A stretch of 27,941 bases of DNA, from contig JAMOQH010000174.1 in the NCBI GenBank assembly GCA_027064085.1, positions 1-27,941 on the forward strand. The letters are read 5' to 3'. Source of the DNA: a bacterium (GTDB lineage: Bacteria > UBP6 > JAFGXH01). The position numbers and the translations under genes were made by a program. Positions 1-27,483 of the stretch are shown in pieces (position 1 is the stretch's first letter; each line of letters opens with the position of its first letter). The notes under the pieces were generated by a model. It saw only the letters and a program-made list of their open reading frames with translations, was not told the origin of the DNA and did no database searches.

Positions 1-39
1 TTTAGAAGAGTTTCAATTCCTCATAGGTAAAGTAAAAAG
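1..39 (-). CRISPR. Leader-proximal end of a CRISPR array (one repeat visible)
   Basis: One 30-nt repeat-like unit occupies 10-39. Read on the minus strand it ends in ATTGAAAC, the 3' end typical of type I-B repeats, and its middle is a CCTATGAGG-type core. Positions 1-9 would be the start of the first spacer. The cas operon runs on the same strand and ends about 330 nt away, so this should be the youngest, leader-adjacent repeat, with the array continuing left of the window. Only one copy is visible, so periodicity cannot be confirmed here. The call rests on repeat-end similarity, length and position beside cas2. Confidence 0.75.
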
Positions 40-371: not shown

Positions 372-638
372 CTATAAAAACTGAAAATCTTCTTTTTTAT
401 CTATTCCATAAACATCTCTCTTTGAATAAAGTAAACTTCTAAAAGTATAAACAATTACACTATCTCCATCACTTTCATCTATTACAGAATTTATCTCATA
501 AACAAGCTTTTTATAGTCAGCTTTACTTATATCTCCTTCAAAAACAGAATTTTGAACCCATGTTAAATATTTTCTACACATTTTTAATAACTTATTACAC
601 CTTTTTGCATTTACATCGTAAATTAAAATTACAAACAT
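372..638 (-). CDS. cas2: CRISPR-associated endoribonuclease/integrase subunit Cas2
   Basis: This 88-aa protein has the usual Cas2 length and ferredoxin-like fold signature. It has an N-terminal strand FVILIYDVN with the conserved Asp (D8), and the motif VQNSVFEGDIS near residues 28-38. Cas2 bridges two Cas1 dimers in the spacer-integration complex. It starts 8 nt downstream of cas1 and is the last protein gene of the cas operon before the leader. No truncation or unusual residues are visible. Confidence 0.95.
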   Translation of the reverse strand: MFVILIYDVNAKRCNKLLKMCRKYLTWVQNSVFEGDISKADYKKLVYEINSVIDESDGDSVIVYTFRSLLYSKRDVYGIDKKEDFQFL

Positions 639-646
639 ATCAGCTC

Positions 647-1645
647 CTACCAGTCCATAACAAATGCTTTATACTCTTGCTCTTCCATTAAGTCTTTTTC
701 TAATTTATACAACTCCATTCTAATCAATCTCCTATAACTTACTTTCTTTTTTAGTGTAGAATGTTGAATTGTTTGCTTCATCTTTTCTTCCATGGCTTTT
801 AAAAACTTTTGTTTTGCAGTGGTTTTTAACAAAATACCATTTAACCCTTTTTCAAAACTCTTCTCTGTAATAACTCCTTTATTTAGGAGTGAAAATATAG
901 TTCTATCTCCAATTATTGGCTTAAAAATCTCTGCAACATCTAAATTCAAACTAAATCTTCTAAAATTAGTAGAATGTAAAAATGCTATTCGTGGATCTAA
1001 ATGAGTTTGATAAATTTCTCCAAGTACAGCATTATAAATCATAGAGTTTGCAAAACTAATAAGTGAATTTAAATAATCTTTTGGAGGCCTTCTAGTCCTC
1101 TTGGTAAATGTAAATTCATCGTCGTTTATAATTTCATTAAAACCATCGTAGTATATTTTTTTATTATCCCCTTCTATTGCCATAGATGTCTCAATTGTTG
1201 TTTTTGTTTTTAAATTTTCTAGATTTCTCTCAATTTTCTCTATTTGTCCTTCTAATTTTCGTCCTCTTCTATTATAATATTTTAATATTTTCAAACTGTT
1301 TTTTCCTGCTCCAATTATAAATTGCTTTGCTAAATTTAACCTCTTTTCGTAATTTTCATACGCAGAAGCCTGTTTTAATATCATAAACCCCGAATTATAA
1401 TGCTCTCTTGGGTAAAAACTCCCCATATACCAACCATAATAATTAAAATACGATAGAATAATTTCTTTTTGACTTAAAAATTCTAAAACTCTCTTATTTA
1501 AATCAACTTCACCAAAAATTAAAATTTCCTTTACCCTTTCGACAGGAATAAATCGTTTTTTCTCTTCTTCTCCTGCTAAAAATAACAGAGTATTATCTTT
1601 TCTTTTAAATTTTCCAGAGCTGAATATGTATACTGTTTCTTTCAT
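647..1645 (-). CDS. cas1: CRISPR integrase Cas1 (type I-B)
   Basis: This 332-aa protein is of standard length. It has an N-terminal beta-rich domain and a C-terminal helical catalytic domain. The metal-binding residues are visible as E158 (AIEG), H224 (PRIAFLHST) and E239 (LDVAEIFKP). Cas1 catalyses insertion of new spacers with Cas2, and Cas4 helps select PAM-containing ends. The start codon follows a TGAGG-type ribosome-binding site. Unlike a compact adaptation operon, cas1 is separated from cas4 by about 570 nt holding a decayed toxin/chaperone remnant, so it may rely on its own promoter or on read-through. Confidence 0.96.
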   Translation of the reverse strand: MKETVYIFSSGKFKRKDNTLLFLAGEEEKKRFIPVERVKEILIFGEVDLNKRVLEFLSQKEIILSYFNYYGWYMGSFYPREHYNSGFMILKQASAYENYEKRLNLAKQFIIGAGKNSLKILKYYNRRGRKLEGQIEKIERNLENLKTKTTIETSMAIEGDNKKIYYDGFNEIINDDEFTFTKRTRRPPKDYLNSLISFANSMIYNAVLGEIYQTHLDPRIAFLHSTNFRRFSLNLDVAEIFKPIIGDRTIFSLLNKGVITEKSFEKGLNGILLKTTAKQKFLKAMEEKMKQTIQHSTLKKKVSYRRLIRMELYKLEKDLMEEQEYKAFVMDW

Positions 1646-1777
1646 ATATACCTCAAAATAAATTTATACTCTTGATTTATATATCGGTCATTAAGCTTGA
1701 AATCTTAATTCCCAAATTTAAGCTAAATATCTTAAATTTTTCGTTCAACCACCCAAGAGGTGTTTTCACTCTTTTTA

Positions 1778-2159
1778 TTATTTATTATTTTCTATTGAAA
1801 AATTCAATGTGGGTAATATTATTGCAGGAATATTCATTTGAGATGTATAAGATGTCACTATTGCTCTTGCAAAAGGATATAAGATTGCAGGAGCATTTTG
1901 TTTATATAAGGTTTCAAATAGTTCATCTGGCATATTTTCATTGCCTTGCCCCCTTTAATTTGAAGAGAAAGACTAAAGGTTTTCTTTAGAGAAGCAACAT
2001 CAAGATTAAATACAACTTCTACAAATCTATTGTCTTCAGGAGTAAATCTATTTTCTATTCTCCTAGCCATTCTTTTTTACCAGATAAATTAAATTTTTTA
2101 TCAGCTTGGATACTTAAAGATGCCTCTTTAGATGTCCCATGATAACCAATAAACTTCAT
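1778..2159 (-). pseudogene. Decayed ART-like toxin N-terminus joined to a frameshifted SecB-like chaperone
   Basis: Two protein remnants lie back to back. From ATG 2159, after a strong purine-rich Shine-Dalgarno, 34 codons read MKFIGYHGTSKE...KKEWLGE and then stop at 2055-2057. The YHGTS...WLGE pattern resembles the start of ADP-ribosyltransferase-fold toxins. Immediately downstream, another frame reads RFTPEDNRFVEVVFNLDVA...SLSLQIKGG. After a one-base loss near 1950 a third frame continues ENMPDELFETLYKQNAPAIL...MNIPAIILPTLNF to the stop at 1778. That second part has the strand pattern and the 'NAPAIL.P..R..V...T' signature of the SecB family. The function is evidently lost. Toxin family assignment is moderately certain; SecB-like is more certain. 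Confidence 0.6.
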
Positions 2160-2188
2160 TTAACTCCCTCCCCTAAGACCTTATTTAT

Positions 2189-2216
2189 ATTATAAGCAAA
2201 TAAGGAAGAATGTAAA
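2189..2216 (-). promoter_or_regulatory. Sigma-70-type promoter of the toxin remnant
   Basis: On the minus strand a -35 TTTACA (2211-2216) and a perfect -10 TATAAT (2189-2194) are separated by 16 nt. They lie about 30 nt upstream of the remnant's start codon and just after the cas4 stop (2218). It may now serve to transcribe cas1-cas2. Confidence 0.5.
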
Positions 2217-2217
2217 A

Positions 2218-2709
2218 TTATGCCCAGCAAAACTCATTATAAGAACAAGTCTTACAATACTTAATTCGTTTACTTATTGGAGGCTTCTCTTTACTTAAAA
2301 CATCTTGAATTTCAGATATTAATTTCTCAAGTTCAGTTTTCTTTTCTTCTGTTAAAATAATGGGAACAATCTTTTTTTCTTCAGGAATTCTTATTTCTCC
2401 TATAATATTACTGTTTCTTAAGCTATAAATATAATATAAAAGCTGAAATTCAGAACTTTCTATAGCTTTTGATGATTTTTTGACTTCAACAAGTATAATT
2501 TTACCATTTTCAGGCCTTACTATATCTAATATATTATTCCCTACTCTCACTTCTTTTTTGGAGTTTTTATAAGTAGTTTCTGATATTAATCGTCCTATTG
2601 CCAGTGATTCATCTTGTTGATTTCCGACTAAGTTTCTGCTCATTAACCACGCTTGTCTAGGGCAAATTTTATATGCCTGAATTAATGAACCATAAATATT
2701 TATTTTCAT
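2218..2709 (-). CDS. cas4: CRISPR-associated exonuclease Cas4
   Basis: This 163-aa RecB-family (PD-(D/E)xK) nuclease has an iron-sulfur cluster. The four cluster cysteines are C16 (ICPRQ), C152, C155 and C161 (YCKTCSYNEFC). The nuclease core shows D62, the E75-V-K77 pair (LVEVKKS) and a Q89..Y93 motif. Cas4 trims prespacer ends and enforces PAM choice with Cas1/Cas2. Its start codon overlaps the stop of the preceding nuclease-like gene by 4 nt, so its translation is coupled to that accessory gene rather than to a cas gene. Length and motifs look intact. Confidence 0.95.
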   Translation of the reverse strand: MKINIYGSLIQAYKICPRQAWLMSRNLVGNQQDESLAIGRLISETTYKNSKKEVRVGNNILDIVRPENGKIILVEVKKSSKAIESSEFQLLYYIYSLRNSNIIGEIRIPEEKKIVPIILTEEKKTELEKLISEIQDVLSKEKPPISKRIKYCKTCSYNEFCWA

Positions 2710-3149
2710 AACTTTTCAATATCCTTTTCTAAAATTATATTCTTATTTTCATATTTAACTTGATATAGCTTCATAAAAATTTCTTTTGCTTTATTTATAT
2801 TATTTCTTGATTTAGGCATTGTTTTGGTTCCAATAGAATAAGCATAAACCTTGTTAAAACAAAGATATCTTAAGTTTTTAATTGAATTATTCAATTGTTT
2901 TATTGCATGATTTATATTTTTTCCATTAAGCTCAATAAAAATACTAACATTCTTATCATCAGAGTTTAGAATATAATCACACCTCTGAAGTAAATAGTCA
3001 TATTTATTACAATCATCTAACTTAATTACTCCGATATTATAATTATTTTTATTTATTAATCTAAAAGTTGATTTCTCTTCTTTTTTAGAAATAATCTTAT
3101 TGCTTTCAATTTTACAACAATAAAAGTTTTTACATAACAAATTACTCAT
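2706..3149 (-). CDS. Nuclease-like partner of ATPase-1 (possible PD-(D/E)xK fold)
   Basis: This 147-aa protein has no family I can name with certainty. A central stretch (about residues 40-92) has an acidic residue D58 in RCDYIL, followed by a strand FIELNGK (E73) and a helix with HAIKQLNNSI. That arrangement recalls the D...ExK core of restriction-like nucleases paired with ATPases. The usual Lys position is Asn75 here, with K77 two residues on, so catalytic competence is uncertain. The N-terminus carries several Cys (C6, C11, C12). It overlaps the ATPase-1 gene by 8 nt and cas4 by 4 nt, implying a coupled ATPase-1/nuclease/cas4 unit. A defence role is inference. Confidence 0.5.
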   Translation of the reverse strand: MSNLLCKNFYCCKIESNKIISKKEEKSTFRLINKNNYNIGVIKLDDCNKYDYLLQRCDYILNSDDKNVSIFIELNGKNINHAIKQLNNSIKNLRYLCFNKVYAYSIGTKTMPKSRNNINKAKEIFMKLYQVKYENKNIILEKDIEKL

Positions 3150-4335
3150 ACTTTATATCCAGTAATAAATCAAAATCGGAATCTAAAACTTCTGAAGTGG
3201 TATCAATATACTCTGCATTAATAAGTTTAATATCATCATCCACTATAGAATTAACATTTGAACCCTTTTTTACCTCATAAGCAGTAATATCATCAATATT
3301 TAACCATAAATATTTTGGTATTATTTTAGTAATTAATTCTTTTTTATCCTTTTTAAGCTTATAGGTATTATCAGCTTGAATTAAATTATTTAAAGATGTC
3401 AAAATATATGGACTATGAGTCGTAATCAGCAAAGAACTATTACTTTCTTTTGTTACTAAAATCAATAACTCTAATAATGCTTTTTGATCCTCAGGAAATA
3501 AACTTATTTCAGGTTCTTCAAATATTATCAATCTATTTGTTTTATTACCTATAGCCTTTAATAACTGAGATAAAACAATTATTGCAGGAAGTAATTGTTG
3601 CTGTCCCGAAGATAACTGTTTTAGAGTAATATAATGATCATTTATATAAAATCTTTCTTCATTATTTATAATTTCATAACGTCCTTTAATTACTTGATTA
3701 ATGTATTTTTTTACTCTAGCTTTAATTTCATCAAAATTATCACTATAAGAATTAGAATACTTTTTATACATTTTTCCAAACTCTTTCATTAAAATAGAGA
3801 TATTACTATCTCCTGAAATAACAGAATAAATCGTTTCATTTAATATCGTAAAAAAACTTCTTTCTGTAGGAAAATAAATAGGATTTAACTTGTTTTCAAA
3901 AACATTATTAGATAGTTTTTCATTAATATTCTCAAGGATTTCGAAATCAAGTGTATTTTCATAGTTTTCAGATAGTTTTTTATTCTTTTCATAAAAAGTT
4001 TCAATATCAATAGATAATTTTTCAGAAATTTTAGCATTCCATGAGTCTATTTTATCACTCTTTATGTTAATGTATTTATCTTCTGTATAATAAAAAATTA
4101 TTTCAAAATCAAAATAATTTTTACCAAATATAGAAATATAGTTTACAAGTAAACGATGAGCCATATCATTAGCGCCTCTAATTTTATACTTATCTCTATA
4201 AAACCCCAAAAACAAATAAACAAGTTTTGCAATTAACGATTTTCCTGTTGCAGACTTACCTATGAAAATATTAAAATCTTTTACTTCTATATTTGCATTC
4301 TCAATCGGCCCAAATTTTTTTATTATTATCTTCAT
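3142..4335 (-). CDS. ABC/OLD-like AAA ATPase (ATPase-1)
   Basis: This 397-aa protein has a complete ABC-type ATPase core split by a helical insert. It has Walker A GKSATGKS (26-33), signature LSSGQQQ (241-247), Walker B RLIIFEEPE (268-276) and an H-loop TTHSPY (305-310). It matches the AAA_15/AAA_21 OLD-like ATPases common in phage-defence pairs. No TOPRIM nuclease domain is attached. The roughly 75-residue C-terminal tail has no recognised domain. The nuclease-like gene downstream overlaps by 8 nt and is the likely effector partner. A promoter lies upstream in the short gap after cas6. Defence function is inferred from architecture and neighbourhood. Confidence 0.8.
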   Translation of the reverse strand: MKIIIKKFGPIENANIEVKDFNIFIGKSATGKSLIAKLVYLFLGFYRDKYKIRGANDMAHRLLVNYISIFGKNYFDFEIIFYYTEDKYINIKSDKIDSWNAKISEKLSIDIETFYEKNKKLSENYENTLDFEILENINEKLSNNVFENKLNPIYFPTERSFFTILNETIYSVISGDSNISILMKEFGKMYKKYSNSYSDNFDEIKARVKKYINQVIKGRYEIINNEERFYINDHYITLKQLSSGQQQLLPAIIVLSQLLKAIGNKTNRLIIFEEPEISLFPEDQKALLELLILVTKESNSSLLITTHSPYILTSLNNLIQADNTYKLKKDKKELITKIIPKYLWLNIDDITAYEVKKGSNVNSIVDDDIKLINAEYIDTTSEVLDSDFDLLLDIKYE

Positions 4336-4357
4336 AATCTACCTATAAAACCAATTT

Positions 4358-4386
4358 ATAATACAATATAAATTGATTTTTATCAA
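4358..4386 (-). promoter_or_regulatory. Promoter upstream of the ATPase-1 module
   Basis: On the minus strand TTGATA (4381-4386) and TATTAT (4358-4363) are 17 nt apart, in the 59-nt gap between the cas6 stop and the ATPase-1 start. The -35 lies inside a small inverted repeat, ATTGAT-AAAA-ATCAAT, which could be an operator. In such A+T-rich DNA chance matches are frequent. Confidence 0.45.
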
Positions 4387-4394
4387 TATTCCCT

Positions 4395-5150
4395 TTACCT
4401 AACAACCTCAATCATACCAAACCCTTGCGAATTTCTGCCTCCTAATCCAGTATCAAGAGCAAATTTTAATAACTTAGGATTATCACTTTCTATATTAAAA
4501 TATCCTTTCCAACCTTTAACCAAAGTTCTCTTTTCTCCTGTACCGAAATATACAATTTTTTCATTATTTTTATTTTTAAAAAGCGGTTTTATAGTAAATG
4601 ATGATTCAATTTCTTCTTTATAATATACACTCCATTTTTTTATTAAATTATCTCTAATCAAAATACTAAACTCTTCTTCAAAGGGTGAATAATAATGAGT
4701 AAAATTTTTACCATTTGCCTTTTTGAAAGTTGAGTGCATTTCTATAGGAGTAACTGCATTTATCTTTAAAATATTATTACGAGGAAGCATAGTATTTATC
4801 ACATTTACAGATGATACAAATAATTTATTATTTCCCAATCTTACTTCGTTGGCATTAATAAAAGTCCTTGCCATGTCTTCAAGAATATAATCAACAGGAG
4901 AAGAAATATAAAAACTAATACTTTGTGGAAACTTAAATTCTTTTTTTATTTTATCAAAGCTCCCTCTTTCTAAAATTGAAGAAAATGTAAAAAGTTTAAA
5001 CTTTCTTTTTTCATATAAAAAACCTTCATCATGAAGTTTTTCAGAAAGCTTATCTGATATATTATTATATATTAAGGCTTGTAACAAAGCGTTGTAGCCC
5101 GTTTTGAGGATTATGATTTGGTTTGATATTAATTCTATTTTTATTTTCAT
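4395..5150 (-). CDS. cas6: CRISPR RNA endoribonuclease Cas6
   Basis: This 251-aa protein has a typical two-RRM Cas6 length. The N-terminal half carries the LHDEGF motif, whose His40 is the probable general catalytic residue. The C-terminus ends in the glycine-rich RNA-binding loop GLGGRNSQGFGMIEV. Cas6 cuts pre-crRNA within each repeat and stays bound to the 3' hairpin in type I-B Cascade. A good ribosome-binding site (AAAGGA, 5 nt before ATG) fixes the start. The gene sits between the two ATPase-nuclease pairs, away from the effector genes, whereas in many I-B loci cas6 is at the operon end beside cas8b. Confidence 0.93.
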   Translation of the reverse strand: MKIKIELISNQIIILKTGYNALLQALIYNNISDKLSEKLHDEGFLYEKRKFKLFTFSSILERGSFDKIKKEFKFPQSISFYISSPVDYILEDMARTFINANEVRLGNNKLFVSSVNVINTMLPRNNILKINAVTPIEMHSTFKKANGKNFTHYYSPFEEEFSILIRDNLIKKWSVYYKEEIESSFTIKPLFKNKNNEKIVYFGTGEKRTLVKGWKGYFNIESDNPKLLKFALDTGLGGRNSQGFGMIEVVR

Positions 5151-5174
5151 GTGTGTCCTTTTATTAAAATAAAA

Positions 5175-5759
5175 TCAACAATTACAAATTGTAGGATTTG
5201 GTAAAACGGGTTTAATCATTGATATTTTATTTTTATATTTAAATAGTATAGTTCTACGGTAATATCTTAAATTATAACTTTTAAATAATTTTTCATATTC
5301 TTCTTGAGTGATGCTTTTATATCTCTTCTTGAGTTTTACTCCATAAGGATCACTAATAAAATAGCAATAAAAATTATTTATCTCAAAATCAAATAAATTC
5401 TTAAATCTATCTTTTAAAAAATCATCTATTGTTGTTTTAAATTTTTCCTCAATATCTTTTATTTTAAAACCTTGAGGAGATTTTATATTTTTTAATTCAA
5501 TTAAATATAAATTATAAATATCCTTTTTTATATTCTTTCTTTTTGGGATTTTACATTTTATTGGAATAAGACAATCTATAGATTTTGGAATTTGTTTTTT
5601 CTTAAAAGGATAATTATTATAATAATTATCTACTTTAACAACTAAATAATCATCATTACAAACTAATTTACTACAGATTTTAGCTTCAATGTTATTTTCA
5701 TTACATTTAGAAGATAAATATTTATTTAAATCTCTATTATTAATAATTTCATCAAACAT
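5175..5759 (-). CDS. Nuclease-like partner of ATPase-2 (D...ExK motif)
   Basis: This 194-aa protein is not one I can name, but it has a plausible PD-(D/E)xK core. D62 (KSIDCLIPI) leads into the strand YLIELKN with E88 and K90, followed by a helix with KFKTTIDDFL. Such a D-xn-ELK arrangement is typical of small nucleases encoded beside OLD-like or ABC-like ATPases. The tail ends in a Cys-containing ICNC. Its ATG overlaps the ATPase-2 stop (TAATG), so the two are translationally coupled. It differs in length and sequence from the 2706-3149 protein, so the two modules are not recent duplicates. Defence function is inferred. Confidence 0.55.
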   Translation of the reverse strand: MFDEIINNRDLNKYLSSKCNENNIEAKICSKLVCNDDYLVVKVDNYYNNYPFKKKQIPKSIDCLIPIKCKIPKRKNIKKDIYNLYLIELKNIKSPQGFKIKDIEEKFKTTIDDFLKDRFKNLFDFEINNFYCYFISDPYGVKLKKRYKSITQEEYEKLFKSYNLRYYRRTILFKYKNKISMIKPVLPNPTICNC

Positions 5760-7120
5760 TAATCCTCATATTTATTTAAATTATCAATAAAATTCAATTT
5801 CTCGTTATAAAGTTTTTCAGATGTATAAATAAAGTTTTCATCTTTAATTCCTAATTCACTTACATTAACATTAATAACTCTTGTTCCCTTTTCAGACTCC
5901 TTAAAGAACAAACAACTGGCCTTATTAATATTAACATCTTTTGATAAAATTAAGTTATTTAATTGATCAAGCATATAATCACTGTGAGTTGTTATTATAA
6001 TTTTAACATTAAGCTTTGATAATTCAATAAATTTTTTCAATAATTCAATTTGCACTTCTGGATGTAAGTGAGCTTCTGGTTCTTCTATCATTATTATATT
6101 ATTCTCATTATTATTTATAATATATTTCAAATATGCAACTATAAAAGTAATTTCTGAAACCATAGAAGATGTAAAAGCTAAATCTAAATTTAAATCAGTA
6201 CCATTTGGTAAAAATGTTAATTTTTTATTCTCTTTATTAAAAGAAACCTTTCCATTTAATATATTATTTTCTATTTCAGAAGCAATTTTTTCAATTTCTA
6301 AGTTTTTTTTATCACTATTTTCTTTGATACTCACAAGATTTATATAATAGTCACTTATGGGAACAGACATTGTTGGGATTTTTATATCATATGATATTTC
6401 AGTTCTTTTTTGAGATAATTCTGCAAAAATTTGTCCAAATGAATTCATTGATTGATAAATTCCAGAACGAGATGCAGGAAGGTAATAAATGTTTTTTAGA
6501 TCTTTTAATTCAGAAAATATTTCTTTTTGTAAATTATCTATAGAAGCTTTATAATTAAACTCTTCATTATCTTCATCATAATTATCTTTAGAAATTTGCT
6601 CAATACAAATTTCTCTAAACCTATCAGATGAATTTTCATATCCATTACCTATTACTTCAAAGTAAAAAATACCATTTTTAATTTTGATATGAAATATAAA
6701 AAAATATGTACTAATAATAATATTTAAATCATTATTATTATATTGGTTTTGTAAGTTTTCTATAGAATCAAAGCTATTCTTAAAAGAATTATTTAAATTT
6801 TTAATGAAAACTCCATTATTTAAGTCACCTTTTATATCTGAGTTATCTGATAAAGCCTCTATTGAGTCTTTATCTTCAGCTTTTAGAGCCTGTTTAAATT
6901 CTTCTTGCTCTAAAGGTGACTTTAATAGCGTTATATTTTTATGAATAAATTCAGAATTAAAATCCTCTATTAAATAAGGTAGATTTTTAATAATTAAATA
7001 AACAGCAGTCATTGCATAAGACTTACCTGTATTATTTGCTCCAATAATAAAAGTAAAATCATCATCAGTATCAAATTCAAATCTTTCTATTATTCCAAAA
7101 TTTTCTAAAATTATTTTCAT
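5759..7120 (-). CDS. ABC/AAA_15-type ATPase with degenerate signature (ATPase-2)
   Basis: This 453-aa ATPase begins with MKIILENFGIIERFEF, a usual opening for OLD/RecF-like ATPases. It has Walker A GANNTGKS (27-34), a conserved YYLPASRSG segment (212-220), Walker B IIMIEEPE (342-349) with AHLHPE, and an H-loop TTHS (377-380). Where ATPase-1 has LSSGQQQ, this protein has TSSMVSE (317-323), a variant signature seen in a separate group of defence-type ATPases. Residues 70-210 form an acidic, helical insert. A promoter lies between it and cas3, and the downstream nuclease-like gene overlaps its stop. It is probably the sensor/motor of a two-gene module. Confidence 0.78.
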   Translation of the reverse strand: MKIILENFGIIERFEFDTDDDFTFIIGANNTGKSYAMTAVYLIIKNLPYLIEDFNSEFIHKNITLLKSPLEQEEFKQALKAEDKDSIEALSDNSDIKGDLNNGVFIKNLNNSFKNSFDSIENLQNQYNNNDLNIIISTYFFIFHIKIKNGIFYFEVIGNGYENSSDRFREICIEQISKDNYDEDNEEFNYKASIDNLQKEIFSELKDLKNIYYLPASRSGIYQSMNSFGQIFAELSQKRTEISYDIKIPTMSVPISDYYINLVSIKENSDKKNLEIEKIASEIENNILNGKVSFNKENKKLTFLPNGTDLNLDLAFTSSMVSEITFIVAYLKYIINNNENNIIMIEEPEAHLHPEVQIELLKKFIELSKLNVKIIITTHSDYMLDQLNNLILSKDVNINKASCLFFKESEKGTRVINVNVSELGIKDENFIYTSEKLYNEKLNFIDNLNKYED

Positions 7121-7147
7121 TATTAAATCCCTAAATAAATACTATTT

Positions 7148-7176
7148 AATATACAGTTTAATCATGTATTTGGCAA
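7148..7176 (-). promoter_or_regulatory. Promoter upstream of the ATPase-2 module
   Basis: On the minus strand TTGCCA (7171-7176) and TATATT (7148-7153) are separated by 17 nt, in the 75-nt gap between the cas3 stop and ATPase-2. An AGGG ribosome-binding site then precedes the ATPase-2 ATG. This would allow the module to be expressed apart from the upstream cas genes. Confidence 0.45.
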
Positions 7177-7195
7177 ATAGTTAGATAAATATAAT

Positions 7196-9676
7196 TTACC
7201 AAAAATTACTTTTACATCTTTCCTGATACCCTTTTCTATTAAATTTTAAATCCTCTGTAATGAAATCTTCATAGTCTTCAATATAATAAATTCCTCCAAC
7301 TTCTTCAATCCAGCCACAAGGCTTATTATTTTCTCCATATTTTATAATATTAAATGTAAAAAACTGCATTAACGAATTAATTCTAGATTTTTCAATTTTC
7401 ATTTCGGTAAAACTTTCAATTTCTCTTAATCCTTTAAATTTATTCCAAACTTTTTTACCATCTAAAAAATTATTTGTTAATAAATTATTATCAATATTTT
7501 TAAATTCTTTGATATCATATTGATTTATATCTATTTTAAAAGGAAAATATAAAGTATAGTTCTGTGAATTTATTAATGTCATTGTTTTACTAATTTCAGA
7601 ATAATTTAATTTAGATATATGGGTATTAAAAGTATCAATATTTGTAGATATACCATTTTCAAACTTTAATCCATTTTTACTTATTTGACTTAATACTTTT
7701 TTATAAAAATCAGGGTAATTTTTATCCTTTAAAATTATTTGATTTTCTGTTTTCCTTAAATTAAACTCTAATCTATTATCGCCTTTATAAATACCTGTTT
7801 CATCATCTAAATAAAAAAAATAAACAACAGAATTACTTTTCTTACAAGATCTATTTACTCTTCCCATAAATTGCTCTTCACTATCAAGAGTCGAAATATC
7901 TTTGAAACCAATATCCATATCAATATCAATCCCAGCTTCAATAACCTGAGTAGCAACTATTATAATTTTAATATTATCTATCTTTGTTCTAGAAATAACA
8001 AAATCTCTATAAGCTTTATTATCATCTCCAGTTAACTCATATTTTTCAAAATTTTTATCAATTTTTTGTTTTAATATATCAAAAACTTCTCTAGCTGTAT
8101 CTTTTTTTATAAACTCAAAAAGTATTTTTTTATTGCTATTAAGTTCTTTACTAAAGATAGTTAACAAATTTTTAAGTCGCTTTTCTCTTAATTCATCATT
8201 TTTATTAAAATTTTCATTTTCTAATAATGAGAAATTAAGTTTTACCCTTTCCTTAAAAAGGCTATTTTTAAAATAGTAGTTTCTGTCCTTAATTAGACTA
8301 AAAAAGATATCTTTTTTATCATCTTTTAATAATAAATCAAGTTTAGGTAAAGTTGCACTCATTATTATTATCTTAATATTTAATAACTTCGCATATTTCT
8401 GAAAAAATTCAATAATATACCACCATAAATTATTATTATATGACTGAATTTCATCAATAATCACAACAGAGTTTGCAAGTTGCCATAAAGGATAATTATC
8501 TTCTTTTGATGTTCCAAATAAAATGTTAAATAAAGAAACATGGGTTGTTAAAATAATTGGGTTATGAAAGAATAATCTGTTCATATATGATTTATCATAT
8601 TCACTCTCTTCATCTTCCTGATTTTTATATTTTTTATCCACTTTAATAGGTGTAATAGAATTTATTACTTCAATATTAACAGTATTTGAAAATATTTCAT
8701 CAAATGTATTTTTAGTCTGCTCAACCAGTGTATTAAAAGGAAATATATAGAATAATTTATTTAAATTATTATCTTTCTCCAATAGTTTTAGTCCTAAATT
8801 TATAGAGGTAAGTGTTTTTCCACTACCTGTTGGAGCTTCAAGGTAAAAAATATTTTTATCTATATTATTTTGAATCCTTTTTTCAGCCTCAAGAAACATT
8901 TCACATCTTAATTTATTAATATCATTATCTCTAAATTTTAAATCTCCATTTTGAAATTCTCTTATACTTTGGATAACTTTATTTGATTCAAATTTTGTTA
9001 ATAGTAATTTTTTTTGAGTTTCTGATAGTACACCAAAATCATCTGTTTTTAAATCTGTCATATATTCAGCAGTAGCATAATAATCACTACTAACTAATAG
9101 AGAAAATAAAAGTTTGTTTAAGATATAAAATTCAAAATTAGGAATATTCAAATCTCGTTTTAGAAGATTTTGAAATTTTATATCATTTTTAAAGTTAAAA
9201 TCCTTAAATGAAGATAATCTTCCATGATGTTTTGATATTTGATATGCAAAACTATACAGAATATATAATAAACAATAATAATCACGGTCTTCTTTAATCT
9301 TTTCAATTTCTTTCATAAAAATATTAATATATTTTTTAGCAGATAATAAAGAGTGTTGTGATGATTCTGTTGTTATGTCAAAATGTTCATTATCCATTTT
9401 ATTTTTTTGAAATGATGGGTTAATTTTACCTAAATCATGTAAGTAAACAGCATTATAAAACATTTTTTTTAATAAATTATGATGAGGTCTTGATACAGAA
9501 AACAACAAACCATCTATTATTTTATTAAGTTTTTTTGTGCTTATCAAAAATTCTAAATATTCTTTAGTTAAATTTAAATGTTCCTCTAATGTTTCTTTTT
9601 TCTTATTTTTCTTTCTATGAGCAAAGATTATACTTAAGTTATCAACCAAATTTAATTCTTCTAAATTTAAATACAT
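7196..9676 (-). CDS. cas3: CRISPR nuclease-helicase Cas3 (HD domain fused to helicase)
   Basis: This 826-aa protein has an N-terminal HD nuclease (H33; H80-D81 in YLHDLGK; H108; H150-H151 in KHHGRL). A superfamily 2 helicase follows, with Walker A EAPTGSGKT (about 280-288), DEIQ (408-411), SAT (440-442) and a motif VI-like QFMGRVNRS. Cas3 is recruited by target-bound Cascade and degrades the foreign strand. All catalytic HD and helicase residues that I can check are present. The start follows AGGAAAAC-ATG. It ends at a gap carrying a promoter for the ATPase-2 module, which interrupts the cas order. Confidence 0.96.
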   Translation of the reverse strand: MYLNLEELNLVDNLSIIFAHRKKNKKKETLEEHLNLTKEYLEFLISTKKLNKIIDGLLFSVSRPHHNLLKKMFYNAVYLHDLGKINPSFQKNKMDNEHFDITTESSQHSLLSAKKYINIFMKEIEKIKEDRDYYCLLYILYSFAYQISKHHGRLSSFKDFNFKNDIKFQNLLKRDLNIPNFEFYILNKLLFSLLVSSDYYATAEYMTDLKTDDFGVLSETQKKLLLTKFESNKVIQSIREFQNGDLKFRDNDINKLRCEMFLEAEKRIQNNIDKNIFYLEAPTGSGKTLTSINLGLKLLEKDNNLNKLFYIFPFNTLVEQTKNTFDEIFSNTVNIEVINSITPIKVDKKYKNQEDEESEYDKSYMNRLFFHNPIILTTHVSLFNILFGTSKEDNYPLWQLANSVVIIDEIQSYNNNLWWYIIEFFQKYAKLLNIKIIIMSATLPKLDLLLKDDKKDIFFSLIKDRNYYFKNSLFKERVKLNFSLLENENFNKNDELREKRLKNLLTIFSKELNSNKKILFEFIKKDTAREVFDILKQKIDKNFEKYELTGDDNKAYRDFVISRTKIDNIKIIIVATQVIEAGIDIDMDIGFKDISTLDSEEQFMGRVNRSCKKSNSVVYFFYLDDETGIYKGDNRLEFNLRKTENQIILKDKNYPDFYKKVLSQISKNGLKFENGISTNIDTFNTHISKLNYSEISKTMTLINSQNYTLYFPFKIDINQYDIKEFKNIDNNLLTNNFLDGKKVWNKFKGLREIESFTEMKIEKSRINSLMQFFTFNIIKYGENNKPCGWIEEVGGIYYIEDYEDFITEDLKFNRKGYQERCKSNFW

Positions 9677-9691
9677 GTTTTCCTACTTTAT

Positions 9692-11859
<2,168 letters not shown>

Positions 11860-11863
<4 letters not shown>

Positions 11864-12237
11864 TCCTCTTTCTTCACATAAAAAATATTATCACTTAAAA
11901 CACCAATTAAAAAATTATCCATATTATGTGATAATTTATCTTCAGAAGAATAGGACATAACTAAACTAATTGCATTATTAAATTTAACATAATTTAAGCT
12001 AACCGCATGCTTATATTTAAAATATACAACTTCAATATTCTTTTTTATTTTCTGAGCATTATTAGCTCGTAAAAAAGGCTCTAACATATCTCCTTTTTTT
12101 TCAAAAGCTTCACTATGATTAAGTAAATATTTAACAACTTGCCCCGCAAGATAAAAAAATTCTTCTGCTGACAACTCTTTATAATCTGAATCAATTAATC
12201 TATTTAACATATTTGTTTGCATCTCTTTTATATTCAT
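11860..12237 (-). CDS. cas11: Internal in-frame Cas11b small subunit within cas8b
   Basis: At residue 433 of Cas8b an ATG (12235-12237) is preceded by AAGGAG (12246-12251) with 8 nt spacing, an ideal Shine-Dalgarno inside a coding region. Translation from it gives a 125-aa helical protein (MNIKEMQTNMLNRLIDSDYK...) in the same frame, ending at the cas8b stop. Production of Cas11 from an internal start in cas8 is established for types I-B, I-C and I-D. The size and helical content agree with a Cas11 that lines the Cascade belly. The separate translation here is inferred from the site. Confidence 0.72.
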
Positions 12238-13533
12238 AACTTTTTCTCCTTTATGAGCTAATAATGAAAGCTTCAAATTTAAACTTAACCCTGCTTTAAA
12301 AAGATTATCTCTTTTTAAATGTAAAATAACAAAATCACTACCATATTTTTTAATTACTTGGTAAAATGTTTTTTCATTATACTTTTTAAAGTAATTGACC
12401 ATTGAAGCCCTTGTAATATATATTAAATTTTGAAAAGATTTATCAAGTTTTTTATAAACTTCATTAAAATAGTTATTTTTTAATTGATTATTATAAAATA
12501 TTTCATGAACTATCTCTTCTAACTCATATAAATAATCAATTGTATCATCTTCTATAAGTTTTTTACCATTTTTAAGCATTAAGTGATTCTTAAAATATAT
12601 TGATTCTTTTAATTTATCTATCTGATTGGGAATGTAATCAAAATCATCTATAATAGCTTCATCATTTTTAGAATGTTTATTCATAAATAGATGTTCTTCA
12701 TTTTTATCTAAAGGATAATGCTCATTATAACCTTGAAACTTCAACCAATCAAAAAATTTCTTTATAATTAAAGCATTCTCATCAGTAATCATAAAGGGTA
12801 TTGTAAATTTTTTAGTCTTAGATTCTAAATATGGTTTCTTTGCATTTAATCCCATATTAGAATTTGATAAACCATAGATTGTTTCATCTAATACTTTACT
12901 ATACTTAATATCATTAAATATTTTTATTGCAAAATATATTTTACTTTCATCTTTGTACTTCTCTATATCTTCATCAAAAAAGATTTTAACATAATTTTTT
13001 ATCCCTTTTTCCTCTTTAATAGAGATGATCTCTTCAAAAATAGTTGATAATATTTTATATTTTATCGAAATATCTTTTTTTCTTTCATCATTTAAGATAT
13101 ATTGATTATAATTTTTAAGAATTTCTATCTCTTTAGGTTTATTAAAGCTTTTAAACCCTTTTAAACTTTTAAATAACTTCTCTTCTATATAATTAAGGTT
13201 TTCAGATTTGATATTATCTATTTTCATAAATAAAGTTAAATAATTATTATTATGAATCATCTTTTTAGGAGGATCAATTGCTTTATTTGAGTTTAAATAA
13301 TTACTATAATAATCTCTTTCTTTAAACCATTCAAACATTTCACTATCTAGACCACCATTAATATCCGTAAAGCTTAATTCTTTATTTTTTTTCTTTACAA
13401 TAAAGTAATTTATTGTTTCATCTTTATTAATTTTACAATAAAGTCCCTCTTTAAGAGAGTAATTACCTAATATTAATTTATCTCCCTCTTTTTTATAGGC
13501 ATCTTTAAAAACTTCCAATATATCATAAATCAT
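11860..13533 (-). CDS. cas8b: Cascade large subunit Cas8b (Csh1/TM1802-like)
   Basis: This 557-aa protein is the first gene of the cas operon, the usual place for the type I-B large subunit. The middle has YYSNYLNSNKAIDPPKKMIHNNNYLTLF, resembling Csh1/Cas8b1. The C-terminus (from about residue 433) is the helical small-subunit-like domain, with AEEFFYLAGQVVKYLL and FNNAISLVMSY. Cas8b recognises the PAM and triggers Cas3. The family diverges fast, so the call rests on length, position and the C-terminal helical bundle. A promoter with a perfect -35 TTGACA lies 55 nt upstream. An internal start for Cas11 is described separately. Confidence 0.88.
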
Positions 13534-24460: not shown

Positions 24461-24490
24461 GAGATTATTTGAGATTATTTGAGATTATTA
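24461..24490. repeat. Three tandem 10-bp repeats at the lipoprotein gene stop
   Basis: The unit GAGATTATTT occurs at 24461-24470 and 24471-24480 and, with a final base change, at 24481-24490. The third copy contains the stop codon of the minus-strand lipoprotein gene. A 10-bp period is not a multiple of three, so copy-number change here could alter the protein's end. Confidence 0.7.
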
Positions 24491-27454
24491 ATTACTTGTT
24501 GAACAAGTGATGTTATCCATGTAAATTTCCCAGTTTTCAGAAGTGTTACCTAACCAGAATAGGGTAAACTTTTTATCTCTGTCAACAATCATAGGATAAA
24601 CGTTAAGCTCTGAATTCTGTGAAACCTGCTCCACTTGCTGTGAAACATTGCCAAGCATATCAACTCTTGCAAGATAAATATTTGAAACAGCAGTATTACT
24701 TGTATCTGGAAGTCCGTGAAATGTTATTATATATTGATTACCTGTCCAAACCATAGAAGGTTGTCTATATACTCTTGAAGAAGCAACTGCAACATTAGTT
24801 ACATTTAGCTGTTCAAGTCTTTTATTAAACTTCCAAACTTTAATAGTATTATCAGTATTTTCTGTTGCTACAAAATAAACATTTTCACCATTTTCCTTTT
24901 GCTGATGAAATGAATAATGTGTTCTTCTATTTATACCACTAACAAAGGTTTTAGGATACCCTGAAATAATATCACCTGTATCTTTATTTATTTTATAGAA
25001 CTTTAAATTATAATCATGTTCAACAACATATATCAAATACTCTCCATCAAATGAAATTTGTGTATAATCAGAATAAGTATGTCCTAAGGCTGGATATTCT
25101 TTAGAAACTAAATTAGTTGTACTTGCAGTATCATTTGAAACAATTGCCAGTCTTGCATAACGATAATCAGAATTTTCACCACTATAATTATTTCTTAAAA
25201 ATGAAATAGCAAACTTATTATCAACCCATGTTACAGAAGGTTCCTGATCAATAAAATAAGAATTATTTCCTCTATCATATACGGTTACAGGCTGACTTAA
25301 TTTATTACCATATCTGTTTATAAACACTCTTTTTAAATATCTTCCTGATTCTCTCCATACAATAATATATTTCTCATCTGTTGAATCTGCAGCAATTGCA
25401 AATTTACCAATTGTTTTACCTGCAGTATTGCCAGAGGCAGTAATTTGATATTCTGTGCCACTTGTTTGATCTCCTGAAATATTATATCTAGCCATATAAA
25501 TCTGGTCACTTCCATCTCTTTGGTCAACCCAGATTGCAATAAACTCATTTTTGCTCCAAATTATAGAATAATTAGGCCTATCACATTGGTCTGTACCATA
25601 AGTATCACTTGCATCACAGCCACTATTACTATCACCATATGTTAATCTTTTATCTGTTCCATCACTATAAACAATCCCGTTATCAACGATATTGTCACAG
25701 TTATCATCAAGAAAATTACATGTTTCAGTAGTTCCAAAATTTATATTAGCATCATTATCATTACAATCAGTACCTGTAATACCATTAGGATCTTCACACG
25801 ATGCATCTGCAAAGTTATCATCATCCACATCAGGTAACTCATATTTACAACTGTCTGTTCCTTCGTCACAATATGCAGCAGCAAGACAAGCATAAGTATC
25901 ATCATCTTGATGGCAATCTATAGGAGTACCTGATTTGCAGAAATGGTCGGTACCACAAACTTCAGAACCATTACAGTACAAATCATCATCACAGTCTCTG
26001 TCACCAAAACAGGAACTATAACAATTTAAACCGTCAGCTTTATAATTTTCATCACATTCACATGAAGCAACACCATCAGTAACAACACATGTTCCATGAC
26101 CACTACAATCCTCACCATAACATTTATCTTCTATGCAATTTAGACCATCAACTAGATAACCTTCATCACAAGCACAAACAGGTTGTTCTTCAACAACGGC
26201 ACACGTTCCATGACCACTACAAGTAATATTTGCACATAAATTTTCCATTGCTAAACAAGTTTCAGGTGCATCATTTGGACGGTAGTAACCTTGGTTACAA
26301 GAACAAGTTGCTACACCATTGGCATCAAAGCAAATACCATGACTATCTTCTGTTACTCCATCAGTACAAGAAACACCTTCACAAACTGTGCTACCTTGGT
26401 TTTCTTTACATGTATGGTCAGATTCATCACAGTATTTATTACCTAAGCAATCGCCATTTGAGGAACAAAAGCCATCTTTTGCAACACAAGCTCCTTCTTT
26501 GCACTCTTCCCAAGTATTTTCACAAGATACATTTACACAAGGATCTATAACAATACAATGTATTTTATCATCAGTAATAGCATAACCATTTGAACATAAA
26601 CAGAGAGGTTCGCCATTACTCACAACACACTGCCCATGACTTAAATCAGTATTATTTCCATCATCACAAATAACTCCATCACATGGATTCGCAGGTAGTT
26701 TGCATGTATGGTCAGATTCGTCACAGTATTTATTACCTAAGCAATCGCCATTTGTTGAACAAAAGCCATCTTTTGCAACACAAGCTCCTTCTTTACATTC
26801 TTCCCAAGTATTTTCACAAACAACATCAGCACAAGGATCAGTATTATTTTCCACACATGTTGTACCAACAGCAGTATAACCAGGTTCACAAATACAAATT
26901 GCATTATCACCACTAGGAACACAACTTCCATGACCACTACAATCTATATTTTCACATGGATTAGTAGTATCATTTTCTACACATGTTGTACCAACAGCAG
27001 TATAACCAGGTTCACAAATACAAATTGCATTATCACCACTAGGAACACAGCTTCCATGACCACTACAATCTATATTTTCACATGGATTAACTACTTTATC
27101 TTTACACAAATGACTATTTAAATCACATACCTGCTCTGTACAATCATCATCAGATACACAAAAGCCTTCTTTGGTTTCACACTTATCTTCTTTACATTCC
27201 TGCCAAGTTTCACAAACAGTATCACCACATTTATTTTCTTCTTCCTGTAAAACACAACTCGGCACACCCGCAACATCAATATTTGAATATCCTGTTTCAC
27301 ACACACAAGCAGGCTTATTATTTAATGCCACACATTGTCCATGGTCTCCACATGTAATATTCTGACACGCACTGTTATCAGTTGACCCAGAAGGGCTGTC
27401 ACTACACCCCCAAAATATAAAAACTGTGAAAAACAAAAAAATGAATTTTTTCAT
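24488..27454 (-). CDS. Secreted EGF/MopE-like multidomain lipoprotein
   Basis: This 988-aa protein starts at 27454 (GGAGGT before ATG). A lipoprotein signal MKKFIFLFFTVFIFWGC ends with the lipobox Cys17. Residues about 25-475 are Cys-rich EGF-like modules, recurrently CxNIxCSGHGxCV...CxCxxGY, alternating with ENTWEECKEGACVAKDGFCS modules. Next comes a CFGDRDCDDDLYCNG segment and an Asp/Cys motif TDCNDNDANINFGTTETCNFLDDNCDN typical of MopE/Put_metal-binding repeats. The final 400 residues are repeated beta-strand units such as SIIWSKNEFIAIWVDQRDGSDQIYMARY, suggesting a propeller. It is probably surface-exposed and involved in adhesion or metal binding; the exact role is unknown. Confidence 0.88.
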   Translation of the reverse strand: MKKFIFLFFTVFIFWGCSDSPSGSTDNSACQNITCGDHGQCVALNNKPACVCETGYSNIDVAGVPSCVLQEEENKCGDTVCETWQECKEDKCETKEGFCVSDDDCTEQVCDLNSHLCKDKVVNPCENIDCSGHGSCVPSGDNAICICEPGYTAVGTTCVENDTTNPCENIDCSGHGSCVPSGDNAICICEPGYTAVGTTCVENNTDPCADVVCENTWEECKEGACVAKDGFCSTNGDCLGNKYCDESDHTCKLPANPCDGVICDDGNNTDLSHGQCVVSNGEPLCLCSNGYAITDDKIHCIVIDPCVNVSCENTWEECKEGACVAKDGFCSSNGDCLGNKYCDESDHTCKENQGSTVCEGVSCTDGVTEDSHGICFDANGVATCSCNQGYYRPNDAPETCLAMENLCANITCSGHGTCAVVEEQPVCACDEGYLVDGLNCIEDKCYGEDCSGHGTCVVTDGVASCECDENYKADGLNCYSSCFGDRDCDDDLYCNGSEVCGTDHFCKSGTPIDCHQDDDTYACLAAAYCDEGTDSCKYELPDVDDDNFADASCEDPNGITGTDCNDNDANINFGTTETCNFLDDNCDNIVDNGIVYSDGTDKRLTYGDSNSGCDASDTYGTDQCDRPNYSIIWSKNEFIAIWVDQRDGSDQIYMARYNISGDQTSGTEYQITASGNTAGKTIGKFAIAADSTDEKYIIVWRESGRYLKRVFINRYGNKLSQPVTVYDRGNNSYFIDQEPSVTWVDNKFAISFLRNNYSGENSDYRYARLAIVSNDTASTTNLVSKEYPALGHTYSDYTQISFDGEYLIYVVEHDYNLKFYKINKDTGDIISGYPKTFVSGINRRTHYSFHQQKENGENVYFVATENTDNTIKVWKFNKRLEQLNVTNVAVASSRVYRQPSMVWTGNQYIITFHGLPDTSNTAVSNIYLARVDMLGNVSQQVEQVSQNSELNVYPMIVDRDKKFTLFWLGNTSENWEIYMDNITCSTSN
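26404..26523. repeat. Copy 1 of the ENTWEECKEG module repeat
   Basis: This segment of roughly 120 bp recurs at about 26698-26819 with only a few base differences (for example TTTGAGG against TTTGTTG). Both encode CENTWEECKEGACVAKDGFC..NGDCLGNKYCDESDHTCK within the lipoprotein. The closeness at DNA level indicates recent duplication or gene conversion. Confidence 0.8.
26847..27089. repeat. Tandem 126-bp EGF-module duplication
   Basis: Copy A (26847-26963) and copy B (26973-27089) are 117 bp each. By my reading they differ at two positions, C/T near 26852 and A/G near 26928. The offset is 126 bp, exactly 42 codons. Each encodes CENIDCSGHGSCVPSGDNAI followed by CICEPGYTAVGTTCVEN. The near identity points to a very recent in-frame duplication. 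Confidence 0.85.
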
Positions 27455-27483
27455 AACACCTCCATAAAAGTCCATTAAAACTA

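Follow-up and report, generated by a model that had tools for sequence, protein, structure and literature searches.

Two ATPase and nuclease-like gene pairs, probably abortive-infection modules, within a chimeric type I-B cas operon

Related two-gene defences and their nesting

WonAB and PD-T4-4 are defence systems in which an ATPase works with a PD-(D/E)xK protein (PMC12137116). WonAB, borne by the WASA-1 prophage of Vibrio cholerae, is a single operon that encodes an ATP-binding cassette (ABC) ATPase and a PD-(D/E)xK protein. The ATPase binds the nuclease as a dimer and licenses it, and once infection has triggered the system, translation stops (PMC12137116). PD-T4-4, its kin by organisation, is an anti-phage system of Escherichia coli that was found on an element resembling an integrative and conjugative element; in it, a short gene for a PD-(D/E)xK protein comes after the gene for an ABC-type ATPase (Vassallo et al. 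2022). PDC-M29 is a phage defence candidate in PADLOC. Here we describe two gene pairs of this general kind, pair A and pair B, that lie between core genes of a type I-B CRISPR (clustered regularly interspaced short palindromic repeats) cas operon. The window analysed is the entire contig JAMOQH010000174.1 (C174, 27,941 nucleotides) of a 3.65-Mb draft genome from the bacterial phylum UBP6.

Nesting of defence genes has been met before. Defences embedded in other immune systems were used to discover candidate systems (Payne et al. 2024 preprint, via PMC12988326), and as far as that source describes it the phenomenon is the same as here. A listing from 2006 includes cas-linked toxin-antitoxin genes and a fusion of an AAA ATPase with a RecB-family nuclease (PMC1462988). 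The initial annotation of the window took the nesting inside cas genes to be undescribed. Embedding as such is known, but we found no report of a pattern that runs through Campylobacterota operons, nor any of a single operon with two such pairs. The clade-wide embedding habit, the chimeric operon and the lost catalytic lysine discussed below appear to be new.

Two pairs at the borders of cas6

The type I-B gene set cas8b, cas7, cas5, cas3, cas6, cas4, cas1 and cas2 is present together with an array of matching repeats, and family profile matches indicate a complete operon on the minus strand. Read 5' to 3', the order is cas8b, an 86-aa open reading frame (ORF), cas7, cas5, cas3, an ATPase of 453 aa, a small protein of 194 aa, cas6, an ATPase of 397 aa, a small protein of 147 aa, cas4, a stretch of debris (about 570 bp), cas1 and cas2. 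Gene order and family matches confirm two ATPase and nuclease-like pairs on the cas strand, as first annotated: pair A at the cas3|cas6 junction (7120-5175) and pair B at the cas6|cas4 junction (4335-2706).

5759..7120, minus strand: pair A ATPase, 453 aa, OLD/ABC-type, resembling PD-T4-4_A and PDC-M47A (Pfam AAA_15, E 3.6e-27)
5175..5759, minus strand: pair A small partner, 194 aa, orphan sequence, candidate PD-(D/E)xK nuclease by its D62/E88-L-K90 motif; its gene overlaps that of the ATPase
3142..4335, minus strand: pair B ATPase, 397 aa, resembling PDC-M29A, signature LSSGQQQ (AAA_15, E 2.1e-20; top PADLOC match PDC-M29A, E 8e-26)
2706..3149, minus strand: nuclease-like protein of pair B, 147 aa, placed with PDC-M29B through its aligned relatives, ExK changed to ExN (N75)

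Both ATPases retain Walker A (GANNTGKS in pair A, GKSATGKS in pair B), Walker B (IEEPE and FEEPE) and the H-loop (TTHS). The signature TSSMVSE of pair A corresponds to SSSAVRS in its relatives, and LSSGQQQ of pair B to SSGxQ in its own. Since each signature is typical of a separate set of relatives, the assignment to two ATPase subgroups is borne out. The genes are tightly coupled, with overlaps of 1 nt within pair A, 8 nt within pair B, and 4 nt between the pair B nuclease gene and cas4.

Against the PADLOC defence profiles both ATPases find matches, the pair B nuclease does so through its family, and the pair A partner finds none. By profile comparison, then, the two ATPases and the pair B nuclease family are matches to known defence families. 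The small proteins carry the motif residues attributed to them, the 194-aa protein D62/E88-L-K90 and the 147-aa protein D58/E73. They are putative nucleases, in pair B by motif and family alignment and in pair A by motif. Promoter-like sequences had also been claimed for both pairs. Matches at 7176-7148 and 4386-4358 (10/12 each) do fall in the expected gaps between genes, but the claim is weak, as there is little excess over shuffled sequence (119 matches across the whole region against 104 +/- 9).

Two trivial explanations were rejected. Recent duplication of one pair does not account for ATPases that are 24% identical and belong to different subgroups. Chance ORFs do not account for the family matches, the intact motifs and ten coupled relatives of pair B. 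Neither ATPase has a relative in the viral contigs searched, nor does the pair A partner or the pair B nuclease.

Pair A resembles PD-T4-4

The pair A ATPase matches PD-T4-4_A over residues 1-394 (E 3.4e-31) and PDC-M47A (E 6.8e-26) in PADLOC. Its relatives sit on plasmids or in genomes without surrounding cas genes. For example, an ATPase on an Annamia plasmid is 36% identical over 107 aa and has a small partner of its own. A pair on an Escherichia marmotae plasmid is a clear PD-T4-4 (A 1e-262, B 3e-108, PADLOC), and pairs of the PDC-M47 type occur in Annamia and in one genome of the Bacteroidota group. No relative of this ATPase was found in the phage records searched.

Pair A shares with PD-T4-4 the order of an ABC-type ATPase gene followed by a gene for a small protein with the PD-(D/E)xK motif. 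It differs in its position inside a cas operon and in its partner, which has no PD-T4-4_B match; for this reason we class pair A as PD-T4-4-like and not as PD-T4-4. The partner has no family match above curated cut-offs and no match to any PADLOC profile up to E 1, PD-T4-4_B included. When its profile was set against those of the PDC-M47B and PDC-M29B groups, nothing significant emerged, at most a short ExK stretch, and the PDC-M47B profile found nothing in 16 type I-B genomes. Two apparent relatives of the partner were dropped: a Campylobacterota match (L167, E 4.9e-4) is an unrelated protein of 557 aa, and another (L168) has a broken reading frame. It is likely that pair A is functional.

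Pair B probably belongs to the PDC-M29 candidate family and lacks a conserved lysine

Searches with the small protein returned ten relatives of pair B, eight in 395 Bacteroidota genomes and two on Bacteroidota plasmids. In all ten, the gene immediately upstream, in the same orientation, encodes an ATPase. The gap between the two genes is -19 to +3 in the eight genomic cases, and the genes overlap in both plasmids. The ATPase is of the same type as in the window, with intact motifs, in 8/10; those of loci L162 and L163 are more distant. None of the ten is within a cas operon, and queries with type I-B proteins recognised no cas genes beside the eight genomic relatives.

The pair B ATPase, gene order and gene coupling are those of PDC-M29, and the profile PDC-M29B matches 5/11 members of the nuclease family (best E 3e-12), all five among the ten relatives. 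The window protein itself departs from it: there is no PDC-M29B match at 0.01, and the only match is to PDC-M47B (E 1.1e-5). The PDC-M29 relatives also differ in lying outside cas operons. Residues C57, D58, E73, L74 and G76 are invariant or nearly so in the family. Position 75 is lysine in all ten relatives and asparagine (codon AAT) in the window protein. In WonB, the substitution K71A in the nuclease motif abolishes both protection and toxicity (PMC12137116). Because the lysine of ExK is replaced by N75, the pair B nuclease may be catalytically inactive, barring an assembly error or a substitute lysine nearby.

One PDC-M29 pair stands near another kind of CRISPR effector. In L160 (7741-13810) about 1 kb separates it from a gene for Cas13b (PADLOC, E 3.6e-255). 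A similar pair occurs in L164, in a genome related to that of L160, with no Cas13b recognised alongside.

Cargo in related type I-B operons

Gene order was surveyed in 96 related type I-B loci, from one genome per species and including metagenome-assembled genomes. An ORF counted as an insert when it had 70 aa or more, ran on the strand of the cas genes and stood between two of them in a gap of at least 200 bp. L140 and L141 were excluded from the count; their 'insert' stands where cas8 would be expected and probably represents a divergent form of that gene. Inserts occur in 20/30 Campylobacterota loci and in 0/44 Bacillota loci (Fisher p ~5e-11, uncorrected for kinship). The loci fall into 24 Cas3 clusters at 80%, and there are more than ten cargo types. 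Inserts were also present in 11/22 Bacteroidota/Ignavibacteria loci, where the one tested is an IS200-like transposase.

The Campylobacterota cargo is mostly toxin-antitoxin or defence genes, which are unrelated to each other and shift from locus to locus at the same junctions. Septu (PtuAB) lies at cas8|cas7 in four loci: Sulfuricurvum (L022, which also carries ParE), a plasmid of Arcobacter cloacae (L122), L126 and L127. Bro-N lies at cas3|cas4 in L023, L028, L070, L125 and L142, and Fic at cas7|cas5 in L029 and L127. HepT-MNT is found in L020 and RHH-GNAT in L021; in both the toxin or enzyme partner is clear, and the HepT and RHH assignments are weak or visual. Other loci hold RhuM-Fic (L132), HsdM/HsdS with an OLD-like TOPRIM ATPase (L133), YhcG, DRT UG13a and Phd-PIN (L134), MBL and NERD/SEC-C proteins (L135), SIR2-STAND (L136) and PemK (L138). 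The Septu inserts, like pairs A and B, are ATPase-nuclease pairs nested in the same operon lineage. They differ in having an HNH nuclease instead of a PD-(D/E)xK one and in their junction, at which the window holds only a probable scar.

Two insert families lie between cas6 and cas8. One is of 226-228 aa. The other, a conserved protein of 171-192 aa (MITIQEAHWKSKGLF; L122 792-1307, L139 5585-6163, L142 4539-5057), had no Pfam match in the single member tested and may be a new accessory gene. L029 (4707-14796) has two tandem effector gene sets in one type I-B operon in addition to its embedded Fic.

Traces of earlier cargo in the window

Two further junctions of the window operon hold what look like remains of inserts.

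11603..11863, minus strand: 86-aa ORF at cas8|cas7, probably what an in-frame deletion left of a Septu (PtuAB) insert, with a PtuB-like C-terminus
1646..2217, minus strand: decayed insert at cas4|cas1, with a frame-broken translation (SecB PF02556, E 2.1e-6 on one fragment)

The C-terminus of the 86-aa ORF matches the NCBIfam model of PtuB (E 0.0011), and its N-terminus (YWHM) resembles the start MTYWHMQLHPN of the embedded Septu ATPases. Compared with 2000 shuffles, the N-terminus ranks 3/2001 and the C-terminus 45/2001. It is therefore probable, and not proven, that the ORF represents the fused ends of a deleted PtuA-PtuB. The beginning of the cas4|cas1 debris, MKFIGYHGTSKEAS, looks ADP-ribosyltransferase-like, without a Pfam match. 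Taken together with pairs A and B, the Septu scar and the SecB debris suggest that four junctions of this operon probably hold, or once held, cargo.

A chimeric operon

The core genes of the operon are as follows.

11860..13533, minus strand: cas8b (Cas8b, E 1.8e-122)
10665..11606, minus strand: cas7b (Cas_Cas7, E 4.1e-37; 73% identity to a Campylobacterota locus)
9692..10675, minus strand: cas5b, 327 aa (TIGR02592, E 9.6e-43; nearest relatives in Campylobacterota)
7196..9676, minus strand: cas3 (Cas3b, E 1.4e-256; Campylobacterota-like)
4395..5150, minus strand: cas6b, displaced and flanked by both pairs (Cas6b, E 4.8e-67; Bacteroidota-like)
2218..2709, minus strand: cas4 (Cas_Cas4, E 8.6e-48; top scores to Bacteroidota loci)
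647..1645, minus strand: cas1 (TIGR03641, E 5.5e-129; Bacteroidota/Ignavibacteria-like)
372..638, minus strand: cas2 (TIGR01573, E 4.5e-12)

Cas3 groups with Campylobacterota in the tree (support 99*), at 53-57% identity, with 57% to Campylobacterales. Cas1 groups with 17 Bacteroidota-type rows from Bacteroidota/Ignavibacteria (100/100*). Similarity scores of Cas5 and Cas7 side with Cas3, and those of Cas4 and Cas6 with Cas1; Cas6, for example, scores 58 bits against Bacteroidota/Ignavibacteria loci and 23 against Campylobacterota. By tree and scores the operon is a chimera, with cas8-7-5-3 Campylobacterota-like and cas6-4-1 Bacteroidota-like. The join between effector and adaptation genes coincides with the position of pair A, cas6 and pair B. 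One way in which cas loci are known to evolve is the exchange of modules near cas6 and adaptation 'attractor' genes (PMC6452270).

Only 4/28 genomes of the window's phylum in the collection searched have any Cas3 match, the best other one at 26-29% identity. Since close Cas3 relatives are missing from the other genomes of the phylum in this collection, the locus was probably acquired. The reverse chimera is seen in Campylobacterota loci L138-L142, which have Bacteroidota-type effectors and, where present, Campylobacterota-type cas4-cas1-cas2. The window Cas5 exceeds most relatives in length by about 75 aa and contains a coiled-coil-like insert at about residues 60-150.

How the pairs may act and how they may have come

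We think it likely that both pairs are abortive-infection modules of the WonAB/PD-T4-4 type that landed in a cas operon of a kind that repeatedly gathers cargo. Each would be a two-gene innate module, with an ABC-ATPase as sensor and a small nuclease as effector, as in PD-T4-4, WonAB and PDC-M29. WonAB, which the pairs resemble in organisation, supplies a tested mechanism. By this analogy the ATPase would dimerise, hold the nuclease and license it; upon infection the nuclease would attack nucleic acid, with tRNA or rRNA as possible targets in the case of WonAB, and growth would stop ahead of phage assembly. Pair A probably works much like WonAB. The modules would have entered the operon as cargo. 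Its effector half, cas8-7-5-3, would stem from a Campylobacterota-type I-B lineage with repeated uptake of toxin-antitoxin and defence genes at gene borders, and cas6 with the adaptation half, cas4 and cas1, from a Bacteroidota-type lineage, so that the pairs flank cas6 at the join. They are probably co-transcribed with the cas genes and would act in parallel with Cascade, not through it.

Several observations weigh against parts of this account. The pair A partner has no credible homologue in sequence searches, and AlphaFold2 single-sequence models of both small proteins are unusable (mean predicted local distance difference test score 35); the pair A partner is therefore a motif-based candidate nuclease. 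No flanking repeats were seen around the insertions in the window. The survey loci were picked by Cas3 similarity and include some close relatives, as the Cas3 clustering indicates. The window Cas1 has a long branch (1.66), and its exact placement is unsure.

The annotation had offered either a CRISPR-linked defence layer or a cas operon serving as a landing site. The landing site is well supported by pair relatives outside cas operons and by varied cargo at the same junctions. As relatives of both pairs are found outside cas loci, a dedicated CRISPR link of the two families is not supported, and functional coupling of the pairs to Cascade is likewise unsupported. The pairs could still be CRISPR accessories expressed from the cas transcript, either guarding the system or serving as back-up killers should Cascade be inhibited or lost. 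All genes are on one strand, the pair B nuclease gene overlaps cas4, the embedding habit is strongest in one type I-B clade, and toxin-antitoxin-like cargo is frequent there. Nevertheless, the cargo varies between loci so that no specific partner is conserved, about one third of the loci have none, and with the outside relatives of both pairs we hold this to be quite improbable. Somewhat less improbable, yet still doubtful, is that the insertions are passive by-products of module shuffling that are now decaying. The lost lysine of pair B, the two junctions with debris only and the location of the pairs at the effector/adaptation join would fit; all four pair genes, however, are intact and their starts overlap, the ATPase motifs are preserved in both pairs and pair A has kept its D/ExK motif. 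As to the pair A partner, it is unlikely to be another kind of effector or an antitoxin. The lack of a family match and the non-significant comparison with PDC-M47B/PDC-M29B would allow this, but D62 and IELK90 are spaced as in PD-(D/E)xK proteins, and the relatives of the pair A ATPase are partnered with such proteins.

The restriction of cargo to one clade may have its cause in operon architecture, in ecology or in selection for co-expression. A bolder and speculative proposal, which we would not expect to hold, is that Campylobacterota-type I-B operons are dedicated platforms where interchangeable innate modules, be they abortive-infection pairs or toxin-antitoxins, are exchanged at fixed borders between genes and expressed along with Cascade. 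The locus would then join adaptive immunity with a changing set of back-up defences, released or required upon failure of CRISPR. One lineage of a common CRISPR operon gathers innate-immunity genes between its core genes and its Bacillota sister lineage does not. This provides a natural system for asking if embedded defences are stabilised or expressed by cas operons, or cooperate with them, and it yields two candidate anti-phage pairs and a natural loss of a catalytic lysine for study.

The array and the rest of the window

The CRISPR array is split between two contigs.

10..38, plus strand: CRISPR repeat at the contig end, an exact match to the 16 repeats of contig C39, in which the array goes on

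The end of C39 (59-1223) holds 16 exact repeat copies with unique spacers, mostly of 35-38 nt. The repeat at 10-38 together with these copies indicates a real array that belongs to the system. The C39 array contains one interval of 185 nt with an altered repeat and unrelated sequence. The non-cas gene rimO speaks against misbinning of the contig, since its identity to the two other genomes of this family is 60-61%. At 24488-27475 the window encodes a cysteine-rich protein of 995 aa with EGF-like repeats (EGF_2, E 2.2e-7) and internal tandem duplications, which is unusual in bacteria.

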